The notes beneath the pieces were generated by a model. That model did not search any database. It worked only from the letters and a program-made list of their open reading frames with translations, and had not been told where the DNA came from. A stretch of 64,000 bases of DNA from Krasilnikoviella flava (GTDB taxonomy: Bacteria; Actinomycetota; Actinomycetes; Actinomycetales; Cellulomonadaceae): contig NZ_FUZQ01000001.1 of NCBI RefSeq assembly GCF_900167525.1, positions 372,001 to 436,000 of the forward strand. The letters are read 5' to 3'. Positions 2,996 to 64,000 of this stretch are shown in pieces. The position numbers were made by a program, and so were the translations under genes. The stretch's first letter is position 1. Each line of letters opens with the position of its first letter.

Positions 2996-3164
2996 AGCGC
3001 CATGGCCGGGTCAACGCTCGGACACGGCTCCGCAACCCTCGGGTTTCGCCCGCCGAGGCGGGCGCGAGAGGGGCTACGGTGGGCGCCGAGGCCCACCATC
3101 CCGGGCCGCGCCACCCCTGCCGGGCCCTCACCCGGGGTCACCGGCACCGTGTCCTGGAGGACCC

Positions 3165-4481
3165 GTGACGACGACGACGTCGATGACCTCGACAGCTCTG
3201 CCCGACACCCCGGCCGGTCCCGCCGGTCCCGCCCCCCGCGCCGGCTCCCCGCTCGCCACCGCGCACAGCCAGCTCGCCAGCGCCGTAGCCGTGCTCGGCT
3301 ACGACGAGGGCCAGCACCAGATGCTCGCCACCCCGCGCCGCGAGATCCACGTGGCCGTGCCGCTCGGCCGCGACGACGGCGAGACGGCCCTGTTCCACGG
3401 CTTCCGCGTGCAGCACAACATCTCCCGCGGCCCCGGCAAGGGCGGGCTGCGGTACGCGCCCGGCGTCGACATCGACGAGGTGCGGGCGCTGGCCATGTGG
3501 ATGACGTGGAAGTGCGGCATCGTCGACCTCCCGTACGGCGGCGCCAAGGGCGGCATCGCCATCGACCCGCGCGACTACTCGACGGCCGAGCTGGAGCGCG
3601 TCACCCGGCGGTACACGTCGGAGATCATGCCCATGATCGGCCCGGACACCGACGTCATGGCCCCCGACATGGGCACCGACGAGCAGACCATGGCCTGGGT
3701 CATGGACACCTACTCCGTCAACCGCGGGTACACGATCCCCGCCGTCGTGACCGGCAAGCCGCTGGCCGTGGGCGGCTCCCGCGGGCGCGGCACCGCCACC
3801 AGCGCCGGCATCGTGCACGTCACCGCCGCCGCCCTGGGCGAGGCCGGCGTGCCCCTGGACGGCGTCACCGTCGCGGTGCAGGGCTTCGGCAAGGTCGGCT
3901 CGCACGCCGCCGCGATCTTCGCGGCCCGCGGCGCCACCGTCGTGGCGGTGAGCGACCAGTACGGCGGCCTCCGCAACGACGCCGGCCTCGACATGGGCCG
4001 CCTGCTCGCGCACGTCGCCGCGACCGGCTCCGTCGTCGGCTTCGACGGCGCGGACCCGCTGTCGAACGACGAGCTGCTCGCCCTCGACGTCGACGTCCTC
4101 GTGCCCGCCGCGGTCGAGGGCGTGCTCGACGACGTCACGGCCGCGCGCGTCCGGGCACGCTGGGTCGTCGAGGGTGCCAACGGCCCGACCACCACCGAGG
4201 GCGACCGGGTCCTCGCGAAGAACGGCGTCACGGTGGTGCCGGACGTGCTCGCCAACGCCGGCGGTGTCGTCGTCTCCTACTTCGAGTGGGTGCAGGCGAA
4301 CCAGACGTACTGGTGGTCGGAGCAGGAGATCGCGGACAAGCTGGAGCACCGCATGACCTCCGCGTACGGGGACGTCTCCGCGCTCGCGAGGCGCGAGTGC
4401 CTGTCGCTGCGCGACGCCGCGCTCGTCATCGGCGTGCAGCGCACCGCCGAGGCCCACCGCATCCGAGGGCTGTACCCCTGA
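3165..4481 (+). CDS. gdhA: Glu/Leu/Phe/Val-family dehydrogenase, probably glutamate dehydrogenase
   Basis: Oxidatively deaminates an amino acid (probably glutamate) to the 2-oxo acid, or runs in reverse, with NAD(P). The 438-aa length is normal. Family motifs: GPGKGGLRYAPGVD (residues 90-103), the catalytic-lysine segment WKCGIVDLPYGGAKGG (115-130), and the Rossmann fingerprint VQGFGKVGSHAA. The N-terminal 25 residues are a low-complexity Thr/Pro/Ala tail. The GTG start has GGAGG at 3156-3160. The next gene overlaps the stop codon. The amino-acid specificity within the family is not proven by sequence. Confidence 0.9.
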   Translation: MTTTTSMTSTALPDTPAGPAGPAPRAGSPLATAHSQLASAVAVLGYDEGQHQMLATPRREIHVAVPLGRDDGETALFHGFRVQHNISRGPGKGGLRYAPGVDIDEVRALAMWMTWKCGIVDLPYGGAKGGIAIDPRDYSTAELERVTRRYTSEIMPMIGPDTDVMAPDMGTDEQTMAWVMDTYSVNRGYTIPAVVTGKPLAVGGSRGRGTATSAGIVHVTAAALGEAGVPLDGVTVAVQGFGKVGSHAAAIFAARGATVVAVSDQYGGLRNDAGLDMGRLLAHVAATGSVVGFDGADPLSNDELLALDVDVLVPAAVEGVLDDVTAARVRARWVVEGANGPTTTEGDRVLAKNGVTVVPDVLANAGGVVVSYFEWVQANQTYWWSEQEIADKLEHRMTSAYGDVSALARRECLSLRDAALVIGVQRTAEAHRIRGLYP

Positions 4482-60350: not shown

Positions 60351-60872
60351 ATGACCGCTTCCCCGGGAAACAATGTGGAGGACGAGCGCCCCGACCAGGG
60401 CGCGGGCGACGCGACCCCGGAGGTGATCGCCCGCGTCGAGCTCGGCCTCGCCCAGCTGCTGCGCCGCGCCGAGCGCACCACCGCGGCGACCACCGTCCGG
60501 ACAGGGGGCCACGACCTCGACCGCTCCGGATACCTGCTGCTGCACGCCCTGCGCGACGACGGGCCCCAGCGCGTGCAGGCCCTCGCCGACCGGCTCGGGA
60601 TCGACGCCTCCACCGTGACCCGCCAGGTCGTGGCCCTCGAGCGCGCGGGCCACGTGCGGCGCTCCCGCGACCCGCACGACGGCCGCGCCGTCGTCGTCAC
60701 CGCCACCGCCAGCGGCCGGGACGCCCTGCGCGCGCAGCGCCGCCGTCGTGCCACCACGTACACGACCGTGCTTGCCGGCTGGGCGCCCGAGGACCGCACC
60801 CAGCTCGCCGACCTCGTCGAACGCCTCAACGCCGACCTCGACGCCTACAAGCGGGACACTCCCCCGGCCTGA
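60351..60872 (+). CDS. MarR-family transcriptional regulator
   Basis: 173 aa. Winged helix at residues about 55-120: RVQALADRLGIDASTVTRQVVALERAGHVRRSRDPHDGRA spans recognition helix and wing. Helices at both ends form the dimer interface. Probably binds the palindrome at 60311-60329 and represses itself and the MFS exporter until a ligand is present. Confidence 0.92.
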   Translation: MTASPGNNVEDERPDQGAGDATPEVIARVELGLAQLLRRAERTTAATTVRTGGHDLDRSGYLLLHALRDDGPQRVQALADRLGIDASTVTRQVVALERAGHVRRSRDPHDGRAVVVTATASGRDALRAQRRRRATTYTTVLAGWAPEDRTQLADLVERLNADLDAYKRDTPPA

Positions 60873-61028
60873 CCCGGGTGCGCCACCCCCGCAGAACGAT
60901 TCTTCGAGGCAACGGTTGTCCCGGTCGCGGTCCCCGCCGCTCCTGGTTAGCGTCATGGTCGGTGCCCGCGGCGACGCCGTGCGCCAGCGACCCGCAGCGT
61001 CTTGCGAACCGGATCAGAGGAGATCGGC

Positions 61029-63443
61029 GTGAGCACCCAGGCCACCGCGGACCCGAGCCCCCACGAGCGACGGCGACGACGCGTGCAGCGCGCGGTCGCC
61101 TCCGCCGTCGCCACGGTGCTCGCGCTCGCCGTCTCGCTGGTCCTCGTCCCCGGACCGGAGAGCGAGTCCGCCCCGAAGTTCAACGTCCGGTGCGACGAGC
61201 TCATCGAGGGCATCGAGGGCATCGCCGACCTGGCCGACCTGCCGGGCGGAGGCCTGGACGACGCCTATACCGAGACGATCGACGACTACGAGTACGACAA
61301 CCCGGCCGAGAAGCTCCGGCCCCGCCAGGAGCCGACCACGGCGGAGCTCGACGCCCTCACCGGCAGCTACGAGGACTACACGCCCGGCACCGAGGACCAC
61401 ATGCTGCGCCGCTGGAAGGTCTACGAGGGCGACTACGCGTGGGACCGGTGGCGCAACACCTACATCCCCGCGGTGTCGAACGACTACCGCGGCGACGGCT
61501 ACCACCGGAACGTCGCGAAGCGCCTCAAGCTCGGCGGGGCCGACTGGATGTGCGAGGACAGCAAGCTCTGGGAGGAGCAGGGGCTCGACTCGAAGCGTCG
61601 GTACGACTCGGTGAACCGCAAGCTCAAGATCGCCTACGAGCTCAAGTCGGGCGACTCGCCGCTCAAGCTGGAGCAGCTGCGTGCGGACAAGGCGCTGCGG
61701 GCCAAGGGCTGGCGCGTCGTCTACATCTTCAGCAAGGAGCCCCGGCCGGGCCAGGTCCGCCTCCTGCAGCAGTACGGCATCGAGCACTCGAACCTGCGCT
61801 CGACGGCCGTGCCGAGGACCTCGTCCCCGCCCGGGAGCACCGCGATGGACCCGCGGTGCGCGACGTCCGCCCGGCCCTCGACGCTCGCCTGCCGCACCAC
61901 AGCCGGCCCGGCCAAGCAGGTCGCGAACGGGTCCGGGCGCAACGCGGCCGAGGCCCGCGAGGGGCAGCGGATCCGCAACGACCTCGGGCAGGACAGCCGC
62001 CGCCCCGGCTTCGGCGCGAGGCGTCCGGGCGGGATCGACTGGCGCTCGCTCGAGCTCAGGTACGTCACCGACGACCCCGGGAACGACGACTACGGCTACG
62101 CCTTCTCCGCCGACGAGCTGCCCGACGACGGCGAGGCGGACCCCGGCTTCGGCGGCGAGGCCGCGCTCGACCTGTCCTCGGACGCGCTGTTCACCTGGCT
62201 CGCGCTGGACCCGAGCCAGTTCTGGGTCAACCTCAACCCCGACACCCCCGAGACCGTCATCGACGAGCAGTTCGCCACCACCGACGCCGGCCGCGTGCTG
62301 CTGCAGGCCGACCTCGAGTTCAAGCGCACCATCGCCGACGGCATGAACCCGGAGACGGAGCTCGGCAAGACCTTCTGGGACTCGCTGGAGCGCACCGAGG
62401 ACGGCGTCATCTGTTACGACTGGTACCGGTTCTGGGTGGACCCGAAGCCCGCGACCGTCCGCCAGGACGACGGCGAGCTGTACATCCTCGACGCTCCGTT
62501 GCGCGCCCAGATCGAGCCGGTCGAGGTGGACTGGGAGATGCCGGGCGAGGACGTGTGCGCCGGCGCCCCCGAGGACGTCGTCGAGCGCAACAACCAGCGG
62601 ATCGTCGACACCTACGCGCCGTACCTCGAGGAGGCGGTGAACACCGACCCCGTGTACGCGGACCTGCGCCGTGTGTACACCGCCCGCGTCGCGTCGGAGT
62701 GGATCAAGGAGCGCGACGCCGAGCGTCCCGGGGCCTTCCACGACGTCATCGGCACGAGCGACGTCTCCGCCTGGCCCGCGCGCACCCCGTGGGACCCGCA
62801 GGAGGTCTACGACCAGTACCTGGAGCGCCTGCAGACGCCGCTGTACCGGTACGAGTACGAGCACGGCGACATGGAGTACTGGCTGGAGATCACGGGCGGC
62901 GTCGAGTTCCCCGACGCCCCGCGCGACCCGGTGGACGCCGAGGCCTTCGAGCGGGACCACCCCCGGCTGCCCGGCACGGTGCGCAGCGCCCGGACCGAGG
63001 CGGCCAGCCTGCCCGTCGAGGCGCAGGGCGAGGTCGGCACGCTCGCCGAGGGCGCGGAGAGCACGGCCTGGCTCGGCGGCGGCATCGCCCAGGAGGACGA
63101 GCCCGGTCCCGACCCGACAGACCCGCCCGACCCGGACCCGACCGATCCCCCGGCCCCCCGGCCGACCGACCCGCCCCAGAGCTCCGAGCCGTCCGACCCG
63201 CCGAGCGCCGGGGACGACGACGGGACGGGCGGTTCCCCCGGCCAGGACGACGGCGCCGGGCGCGCGGAGCAGCGGCCCGAGCCGCCGCAGGCGGACCCGC
63301 CGCGGAGCGAGCAGGCCCCGCTGCCCGGCGCGCTCGCCGACACCGGCATCGGCAACGCCTGGCTCCTGCCGGCGGCGGTCGCTCTCGTGCTCCTGGGCCT
63401 CGCCCTGGTGGGCGTGCGACGCCGCTGGTTCCCGCGGTCCTGA
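61029..63443 (+). CDS. Large sortase-anchored (LAXTG) surface protein with a nuclease-like motif
   Basis: 804 aa. Basic N-terminus and signal helix (residues about 20-42). Region about 120-262 ends in RYDSVN (Asp193), YELKSG (Glu204, Lys206) and EQLRAD (Gln216), then a strand GWRVVYIF, an order resembling PD-(D/E)XK nuclease-fold toxin domains. Region about 385-625 is a second unknown domain (FWVNLNPDTPE, TDAGRVLLQADLEFKR, YDWYRFWVDPKP). A Pro/Asp-rich stalk (about 690-762) leads to LADTG (769-773), a hydrophobic helix and a basic tail, the LAXTG signal used by class E sortases. The GTG has AGGAG 7 nt upstream. Function unknown. Confidence 0.85.
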   Translation: MSTQATADPSPHERRRRRVQRAVASAVATVLALAVSLVLVPGPESESAPKFNVRCDELIEGIEGIADLADLPGGGLDDAYTETIDDYEYDNPAEKLRPRQEPTTAELDALTGSYEDYTPGTEDHMLRRWKVYEGDYAWDRWRNTYIPAVSNDYRGDGYHRNVAKRLKLGGADWMCEDSKLWEEQGLDSKRRYDSVNRKLKIAYELKSGDSPLKLEQLRADKALRAKGWRVVYIFSKEPRPGQVRLLQQYGIEHSNLRSTAVPRTSSPPGSTAMDPRCATSARPSTLACRTTAGPAKQVANGSGRNAAEAREGQRIRNDLGQDSRRPGFGARRPGGIDWRSLELRYVTDDPGNDDYGYAFSADELPDDGEADPGFGGEAALDLSSDALFTWLALDPSQFWVNLNPDTPETVIDEQFATTDAGRVLLQADLEFKRTIADGMNPETELGKTFWDSLERTEDGVICYDWYRFWVDPKPATVRQDDGELYILDAPLRAQIEPVEVDWEMPGEDVCAGAPEDVVERNNQRIVDTYAPYLEEAVNTDPVYADLRRVYTARVASEWIKERDAERPGAFHDVIGTSDVSAWPARTPWDPQEVYDQYLERLQTPLYRYEYEHGDMEYWLEITGGVEFPDAPRDPVDAEAFERDHPRLPGTVRSARTEAASLPVEAQGEVGTLAEGAESTAWLGGGIAQEDEPGPDPTDPPDPDPTDPPAPRPTDPPQSSEPSDPPSAGDDDGTGGSPGQDDGAGRAEQRPEPPQADPPRSEQAPLPGALADTGIGNAWLLPAAVALVLLGLALVGVRRRWFPRS

Positions 63444-63533
63444 CCCCGCGGGGCGGCGGCGATCTGCCCTGAGCAGATGCGCTGGCGGCAGAGAGACCTC
63501 CCGCGACGGCTGCCGCCGGCGGACGGTGAGGTC

Positions 63534-64000
63534 ATGAGCACACCAGCCATGAGCACACCGACACCTACCGGCCCGCCCGCCTTCGACGACCAGCTCACCA
63601 CGCGGCTGCTGCACCAGCGCATCGTGGTGATCGGCACCGAGATCGACGACGCGGTCGCCAACCGCGTCGTCGCCCAGCTCCTGCTCCTGTCGGCGGAGGA
63701 CCCGCGGTCCGACGTCGCCCTCTACATCAACTCCCCCGGCGGCTCCGTCACCGCGGGGCTCGGCATCTACGACACGATGCGGCTGATCCCGAACGACGTC
63801 GTGACGGTCGGGTTCGGCTTCGCGGCCAGCATGGGCCAGTTCCTGCTGGCCACCGGCACCAAGGGCAAGCGGTACGCCCTGCCGCACACCCGCGTGATGA
63901 TGCACCAGCCGTCCGCCGGCATCGGGGGCACCGCGGTCGACATCGCCATCCAGGCCGAGAACCTCGAGCACACCAAGCGCGTCATGCACGAGCTCATCGC
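63534..64000 (+). CDS. clpP: ATP-dependent Clp protease proteolytic subunit (3' end outside window)
   Basis: First 155 codons of a ClpP-type serine peptidase; the gene runs off the right edge. [19 protein letters not shown] precedes the nucleophile region [14 protein letters not shown] (Ser), and the catalytic His is in VMMHQPSAG. The Asp of the triad should lie beyond the window. Two in-frame ATGs (63534 and 63549) begin the same MSTP repeat; GAGG at 63528-63531 is not ideally spaced for either. Preceded by a 90-nt gap without a clear promoter. Confidence 0.93.

Follow-up and report, generated by a model that had tools for sequence, protein, structure and literature searches.

Introduction

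In polymorphic toxins, according to those sections of Zhang et al. 2012 that treat their layout, the toxin domain stands last, at the C-terminus (PMC3482391). Among them the Tox-REase-1 to -10 systems, as presented in the same source, are modular exported proteins with exchangeable nuclease and deaminase domains and with adjoining immunity genes. The gene that concerns us here, at 61029–63443 on the plus strand of a 64,000-nucleotide stretch of the genome of the soil actinobacterium Krasilnikoviella flava (the window), belongs to a family that resembles these systems in its modular exported proteins, its exchangeable modules and its adjoining immunity candidates, and differs from them in polarity: a toxin-type module (domain 1 in the window's protein) is N-terminal, and a constant domain (domain 2) and an anchor are C-terminal. 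Compared with polymorphic toxins in general, the family has the constant part and the exchangeable modules and lacks the C-terminal toxin. Domain 1 has a motif similar to the one given for Tox-REase-7 (GxxxE, IxD, ExK, Q) and does not reach that model's score; domain 2 and the two candidate immunity families described below, one that we name ImmA and the other DUF6333 (PF19859), are absent from the Tox-REase descriptions in that paper. We favor, with modest confidence, the view that the members of this family are polymorphic toxins displayed on the cell surface in reversed polarity, with the toxin N-terminal and the anchor C-terminal; most are linked to a putative immunity gene, and the window's copy is unaccompanied by one.

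Other described systems share parts of this picture. Streptomyces umbrella toxins, in the portions of PMC11062931 that describe them, likewise have signal peptides, a deaminase among their toxin domains and adjoining immunity genes; they differ in their C-terminal toxin, their ALF repeats and their assembly with lectins into soluble multi-protein particles, for which those portions describe no wall anchor. Streptococcus suis WapA, according to the summary in PMC12704120, is also a polymorphic toxin that a Gram-positive bacterium exports by Sec and attaches to its wall, with the involvement of a sortase (SrtB); unlike the window's protein it is an Rhs protein of more than 3100 amino acids with a C-terminal toxin, an N-terminal wall-binding part and a dedicated SrtB. 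The substrates of class E sortases, for example the chaplins, have an LAxTG motif, a hydrophobic stretch and a basic tail in common with the window's protein; those named in the relevant part of PMC5148588 act in aerial growth, with no enzyme or toxin described among them. The alarmone synthetase SaEAS (PMC12691689, in its outline) is, as we propose for the window's protein, a Sec-exported enzyme of a toxin superfamily with no adjoining immunity gene. It is a Streptomyces protein with another enzymatic activity, is secreted rather than wall-anchored, and is reported in that outline to be toxic only if kept in the cytosol. Tde5, as sketched in PMC13392607, is one nuclease toxin with two unrelated immunity families, as proposed here; its two immunity proteins protect together, whereas the candidates described below replace each other. 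Finally, a Streptococcus sanguinis nuclease is likewise cell wall-anchored and can be set beside the window's protein on the strength of the paper's title, which ties it to escape from neutrophil traps (PMC4118848).

Our literature search, with preprints and most subscription papers outside its reach, found no description of the reversed layout, and the family appears to have been overlooked so far, as a variant of the polymorphic toxin theme. If our reading is right, it provides a testable function for DUF6333 and for a second, hitherto unnamed gene family (ImmA), and extends bacterial toxin delivery by a wall-anchored layout that runs back to front. Intact copies with an immunity gene, intact copies without one and catalytically dead copies would then form a natural series in which the separation of toxin and immunity may be studied.

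Results and Discussion

A nuclease-type site is invariant in the aligned domain-1 sequences

The original prediction, made from the sequence of the window, proposed an exported protein that carries a sortase-type signal and a nuclease-type module with D193, E204-x-K206 and Q216, the module being followed by a second domain at residues ~385-625 with motifs that it could not place. Sequence and alignment bear out the module and its setting. The second domain is real and still matches no Pfam, NCBIfam or PDB family, while its limits had been drawn wrongly; alignment with 8 relatives, together with profile matches in further genomes, places it at residues ~325-685 (62001–63083).

Domain 1 extends over residues ~80-262 (61266–61814), with limits taken from homology in the alignments, and its putative PD-(D/E)XK active site, D193, E204, K206 and Q216, lies at 61605–61676; the first three positions were located by script and Q216 from the alignment. 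Conservation of D193, E204 and K206 among homologues had been named beforehand as one of two points on which the prediction should be judged, beside an alpha-beta-beta-beta-alpha-beta core, and the equivalent residues are invariant in 40 of the 40 domain-1 sequences of a hand-chosen alignment, as are those of G155, R190 and N196 (window numbering). Q216 and D220 are kept in at least 90% of these sequences. Where the Tox-REase motif has its acid in the first helix, most rows have E, and the window's protein and several others have H. The window's domain 1 also departs from the Tox-REase-7 motif in having no I two residues before the D; the D, ExK and Q fit.

Searches of Pfam with the 40 members matched Tox-REase-7 in six (best E 0.025) and Tox-REase-9 in two, all weakly and amid scattered matches to 18 other families. 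Against Tox-REase-9 the window's domain 1 scored 12.7 bits, missing the curated threshold of 27.3, and locus L160 matched PDDEXK_4 with an E of 0.027 (14.8 bits, cut-off 22.3). Weak as these matches are, they seem to be recurrently nuclease-like in kind; NCBIfam gave nothing convincing for domain 1. Two structure models (pLDDT, the predicted local distance difference test, 41; built from two sequences) were discarded as evidence, so that assignment of the nuclease fold rests on the motif, its conservation and the weak Pfam matches. In the AlphaFold2 model of this kind, D193 is followed by strand-helix-strand-helix-strand at a pLDDT of ~55-64. Taken together, domain 1 is likely to be a nuclease module of the PD-(D/E)XK type.

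Domain 2 carries exchangeable N-terminal modules

The domains are separable. In L003-L005 both occur, in L006-L008 domain 2 follows another N-terminal part, and in L009 domain 1 stands alone at the C-terminus. An earlier domain-1 profile matched 57 domain-2 loci and 3 others. Among the first 75 domain-2 loci 19 were without domain 1, and 17 of these 19 have the motif H[ST]E. The window, locus L163, lies outside these 75 and is included in the own-family counts and in the full set of 92 loci, where domain 2 is joined to nuclease-type modules (69 intact and 4 dead), to deaminase-type modules (17) or to modules that could not be placed (2); the terms dead and deaminase type were assigned from motifs read in alignments. 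In each of the 92 loci the module precedes domain 2, and domain 1 is C-terminal only in three proteins of conventional layout that lack domain 2 (L009, L125 and L124). At least four genomes (G515, G558, G501 and G612) contain both main module types. That different enzyme modules sit on the same domain 2 suggests that domain 2 is the constant part of a protein that carries toxin-type enzymes, all of them N-terminal.

An alignment of 15 of the 17 deaminase-type loci, made without L103 and L106, shows an invariant HxE and two invariant Cys (CxxC). Pfam searches with these 15 modules matched XOO_2897-deam in three (best E 0.0014) and APOBEC_N, NAD1 and Toxin-deaminase in two each, in addition to unrelated single matches, and a search of PDB sequences yielded nothing usable for these modules or for domain 2. 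The two modules outside both the nuclease and the deaminase type are those of L111:3499-4698 and L115:3573-4526; the idea that the L111 module is the same nuclease was rejected (hhalign probability 0.1%).

The C-terminal tail follows the module. A sorting motif of the form [LM][APV]xTG is present in the tails of 66 of the 69 intact nuclease-type proteins and of 4/4 dead copies, and in none of the 17 deaminase-type or 2 unplaced proteins; the sorting motif travels with the type of N-terminal module.

PrsW-like genes were encountered repeatedly in these surroundings. Sequence clustering placed one near 8 of the 19 non-nuclease loci (L008, L104, L107, L111, L113, L116, L122 and L127), and Pfam confirmed PrsW in the 3/3 that were checked; at five of these eight loci there is, in addition, a gene whose small product has a membrane stretch and a tail rich in Pro, Thr and Leu. 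At L124:7006-9270 (minus strand) domain 1 ends a polytopic membrane protein that by eye resembles the PrsW protease, with an ImmA-like gene downstream. The sections of PMC3482391 that deal with PrsW name it as a toxin-releasing peptidase and foresee this layout for other nuclease toxins; possible N-terminal toxins receive a brief mention there, and only for PrsW fusions of archaea and fungi.

Two gene families accompany and co-diverge with domain 1

Clustering of the neighboring genes, at first restricted to open reading frames with a high-GC codon pattern, gave two leading groups, ImmA and DUF6333, each found solely beside nuclease-type genes. ImmA includes the gene that follows the domain-1-only protein of L009; DUF6333 is the Pfam family matched by the L004 neighbor with an E of 3.9e-95. 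Profiles of both were then applied to all open reading frames of at least 60 amino acids. Of the 56 nuclease-type loci among the first 75, 31 have ImmA and 24 have DUF6333, never both, and the one with neither is that of Antribacter; none of the 19 non-nuclease loci has either. With the own-family loci added, the 69 intact nuclease-type loci comprise 35 with ImmA, 24 with DUF6333 and 10 with neither, so that 59 have one of the two families and none of these 59 has both. Neither was found in any of the 23 deaminase-type, dead or unplaced loci.

Both families lie upstream of the toxin gene, at median gaps (from the matched stretch to the gene) of ~180 bp for ImmA and ~120 bp for DUF6333, with four gaps above 600 bp; these values are approximate, since the ImmA genes of L005, L092, L098, L099, L112 and L123 lie inside over-long mechanical open reading frames and the toxin start of L087 is over-extended. 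In 34 of the 35 domain-2 loci with ImmA, this gene and the toxin gene point away from each other; DUF6333 has the orientation of the toxin gene in 17 of its 24 loci. Beside the three conventional domain-1 proteins, ImmA is directly downstream in the same direction, the match in L124 being weak (E 1.9e-7). The matched stretches of both families have no strongly hydrophobic segment, which suggests that the proteins are cytosolic. ImmA has no strong match in Pfam (DUF6278 was touched by 5/23 members, best E 0.0016), nothing convincing in NCBIfam and nothing usable among PDB sequences, and a text search of the literature within reach found no mention of DUF6333.

If these genes confer immunity to domain 1, they should have diverged with it. 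Over 35 loci the partial correlation of ImmA distances with those of domain 1, given domain 2, is 0.58 (p 0.0005), leaving a small remainder of 0.12 (p 0.03) with domain 2 given domain 1. For DUF6333 (24 loci) the corresponding values are 0.79 (p 0.0005) and 0.02 (p 0.34). Exchanges between ImmA and DUF6333 require 4 changes on the domain-1 tree and 7 on a domain-2 tree built from identical rows, both trees being quick searches with long branches and warnings; L002 and L128, which duplicate L147 and L163, are in neither. Such co-divergence with domain 1 is as expected of toxin and immunity genes that travel together, and linkage and co-divergence together suggest that ImmA and DUF6333 are immunity genes for domain 1.

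Two loci show variations on this arrangement. In L101 two successive DUF6333 matches (1297-2748 and 3032-3742) lie upstream of one toxin gene. In L028 (G363:C1, ~205 kb) a DUF6333 gene precedes a domain-1 remnant with an internal stop; here the toxin module has decayed and the immunity-like gene next to it has been kept.

The window's clade keeps its site and has neither gene

The window belongs to an 11-row clade (support of 97 in the Shimodaira-Hasegawa-like approximate likelihood ratio test, SH-aLRT) that comprises seven intact members, namely the window, Antribacter (L147), L148, L149, L150, L151a and L152, and four dead copies. The four site residues D, E, K and Q are kept in all seven intact members. 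In four pairs with the window's protein the ratio of nonsynonymous to synonymous substitution rates (dN/dS) is 0.24-0.38 for the domain-1 core, 0.31-0.49 for domain 2 and 0.55-1.29 for the fast-evolving linker between the two domains; the clade's active site is under purifying selection. The clade's sorting motifs include LPxTG, MPxTG or LVxTG in place of LAxTG.

Neither ImmA nor DUF6333 was found in the fetched regions of the seven intact loci. The ImmA profile does work in the window's family, where it matches L156, which is from the window's genus, and L160-L162. The other three of the ten intact loci without either gene are L157-L159, in which DxK replaces ExK in the nuclease-type module and which may have a further immunity family. 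The original prediction had noted the absence of an adjoining immunity gene and had taken it to argue against a simple toxin. The observation holds for the window and for the six other intact loci of its clade. The argument fails, because 59 of the 69 intact nuclease-type loci have an immunity-like gene upstream; its absence here is an exception and is no argument that the family did not arise as toxins.

The exception does raise a different possibility for this clade, namely that its protein is a surface nuclease with no weapon role, which cuts extracellular or incoming DNA in nutrition, in biofilms or as a barrier to transformation or phage. Such an enzyme would need no immunity protein, because it would never meet the DNA of its producer, and it agrees with the retention of the four site residues under purifying selection in the lack of both genes. 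The exported Streptomyces alarmone synthetases without immunity genes, in the outline given by PMC12691689, are a precedent. ClpP and resistance-nodulation-division (RND) pump genes are found near the gene in the window, L150 and L151, and these common surroundings suggest that it has been inherited in place, which also fits a surface nuclease. A third conserved neighbor was sought, and the matches listed for these three loci amount at most to the RND pump, ClpP and an inhibitor-like stretch. Against this idea, domain 1, domain 2 and the anchor are common to the immunity-linked relatives, no link to DNA uptake or phage was seen, and two lineages of the clade have lost catalytic residues, which would not be expected of a steadily useful DNase. 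We consider this explanation rather unlikely; it may in any case be compatible with the ImmA- or DUF6333-linked relatives being toxins.

The four dead copies, in which catalytic positions are lost, are L153-L155 and L151b, and none of them has ImmA or DUF6333 beside it. The dN/dS of their domain-1 core is 0.51 for the pair L153-L154 and 0.32 for L153-L155. At L151:4210-11008 (minus strand), in the window's genus, L151a with an intact site and L151b with a lost one form a tandem pair with domains 2 that are 79% identical; L151b could be a decoy or a guard.

Distribution of the family

The spread of domain 2 is patchy. Profile matches were obtained in 8/394 genomes of the class for domain 2, in 8/394 for domain 1, and in 16/150 genomes of the window's family for domain 2. 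In a sample of 295 genomes of one genus, taken to be Streptomyces, domain 2 is present in 64, and is thus common there. That search listed 78 places, of which regions were fetched for 64; the remainder are seven full-size places (in G513, G500, G394, G599 and G509, a second place in G575 and a second terminal copy in G632) and seven short partial ones. L080 (G419) is apparently interrupted and was used unchanged. Equal-scoring copies at G632:C1:52498 and G632:C1:11487323, near both ends of a contig of 11.54 Mb, suggest a terminal inverted repeat. Among 72,556 plasmid records a tblastn search matched 7, each of them from Streptomyces, and the Antribacter soli (Promicromonosporaceae) homologue was found by one pattern scan of a species-genome collection. 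A phage or viral origin was rejected as far as searched: a phage collection gave no match, and three scans of viral contigs with short exact peptide patterns found no relative.

The frequency in a single genus would suit a protein of developmental or self-directed cell death in mycelial actinobacteria, for which ImmA or DUF6333 would act as a timer; the divergent orientation of nearly all ImmA genes would permit their separate control. The patchy spread and the exchange both of modules and of two immunity families look like conflict, and the protein is exported, so that we regard this possibility as very improbable.

A proposed mode of action and the points that weigh on it

As reversed-polarity toxins, these proteins might act as follows. 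The protein would be exported by Sec and fold outside the cell, with C55-C175 and C462-C510 as probable disulphides, and would then be fixed to the wall through its LAxTG signal by a class E sortase. With the anchor at the C-terminus, the nuclease module would be outermost, at the tip. Domain 2 is constantly between module and anchor, which suggests a task in display or transfer. Contact or release would be followed by entry of the nuclease into a neighboring actinobacterial cell, where it would cut nucleic acid, and kin would be guarded by cytosolic ImmA or DUF6333. The window's copy might act on non-kin only or on outside DNA, or might be guarded by something unseen so far; it may still be a weapon, with a barrier or scavenging nuclease as a serious rival reading.

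Several points weigh against a toxin of this kind. The N-terminal position of the toxin is contrary to the usual polymorphic toxin layout, and the delivery step into the target cell is a gap in the weapon model. Ten of the 69 intact nuclease-type loci, the window among them, have neither gene adjoining, and searches of the window's whole genome, made with no positive control, found neither ImmA nor DUF6333. The linkage test counts related loci as independent, so that its Fisher's p of 3e-14 is a rough figure only, and unequal rates may add to the partial correlations. With respect to the fold, an hhalign comparison with the single Tox-REase-7 sequence found placed the D and ExK in register with a probability of 0.2%, a PDB profile search with domain 1 had no nuclease among its matches, and the AlphaFold2 model, from two sequences only, had a pLDDT of 40.9.

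In view of these values, domain 1 might be a binding domain, for DNA or a wall polymer, with the look of a PD-(D/E)XK nuclease, and ImmA and DUF6333 might be regulators or accessory proteins. The persistence of copies without a site, with a constrained domain-1 core in the two pairs given above, is in keeping with this. An invariant D, E and K in every one of the 40 aligned sequences is hard to reconcile with binding alone, as are the lack of both genes beside the dead copies and the presence of ImmA downstream of the three conventional proteins that have domain 1 and no domain 2; we judge the proposal improbable.

The toxin and surface-nuclease readings can also be joined. We put forward, tentatively and as somewhat short of probable, an actinobacterial class of reversed-polarity surface toxins with an N-terminal nuclease held by sortase or an N-terminal deaminase held by a membrane helix, the latter often with a gene for a PrsW-type protease adjoining, and with two mutually replacing immunity families that include DUF6333. 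In the window's clade the nuclease would have been freed from immunity and would have become a standing barrier against foreign DNA, and the dead copies would have taken on a binding or guarding role.

The gene and its surroundings

The open frame of 804 amino acids runs from a GTG at 61029 to a TGA at 63441–63443 and is preceded by a ribosome-site-like AGAGGAG (61016–61022), 6 nucleotides ahead of the start. A longer start, TTG at 61002, would add 9 unneeded residues and was rejected. The GC content by codon position, 0.72/0.50/0.97 (computed on L128, the same gene), is typical of a genuine high-GC gene, and the Antribacter soli homologue is full-length, with an identity of 70% over the alignment and 73% in the best segment. 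Scans of the whole protein with Pfam, NCBIfam and PADLOC gave no family over its cut-off, and phmmer matched no PDB chain.

By its sequence the protein begins with a putative signal sequence, an Arg-rich n-region and a hydrophobic core, at residues 1 to ~48 (61029–61172). Beyond domain 2 lie a Pro/Asp-rich spacer (residues ~688-766, 63090–63326), the LAxTG-type sorting motif LADTG (residues 769-773, 63333–63347), which has counterparts in the relatives, and the rest of the sorting signal, a hydrophobic stretch with a basic tail (residues ~778-804, 63360–63440). Together these agree with the signature of a class E sortase substrate; the NCBIfam model LPXTG_anchor gives 14.3 bits, below the calling level of 15.9. 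The four cysteines C55, C175, C462 and C510 are all present in 18/18 loci of the own-family alignment. C462 and C510 (62412–62558) are a probable disulphide within domain 2, a pairing suggested by their conservation, and C55-C175 is a second probable one, which would tie the N-terminal segment to domain 1.

One Gram_pos_anchor protein is encoded elsewhere in the window's genome. The upstream neighbor, at 60351–60872 of the window, is a MarR-type regulator according to Pfam, and the downstream neighbor, at 63477–64000, is by eye a ClpP-like gene.

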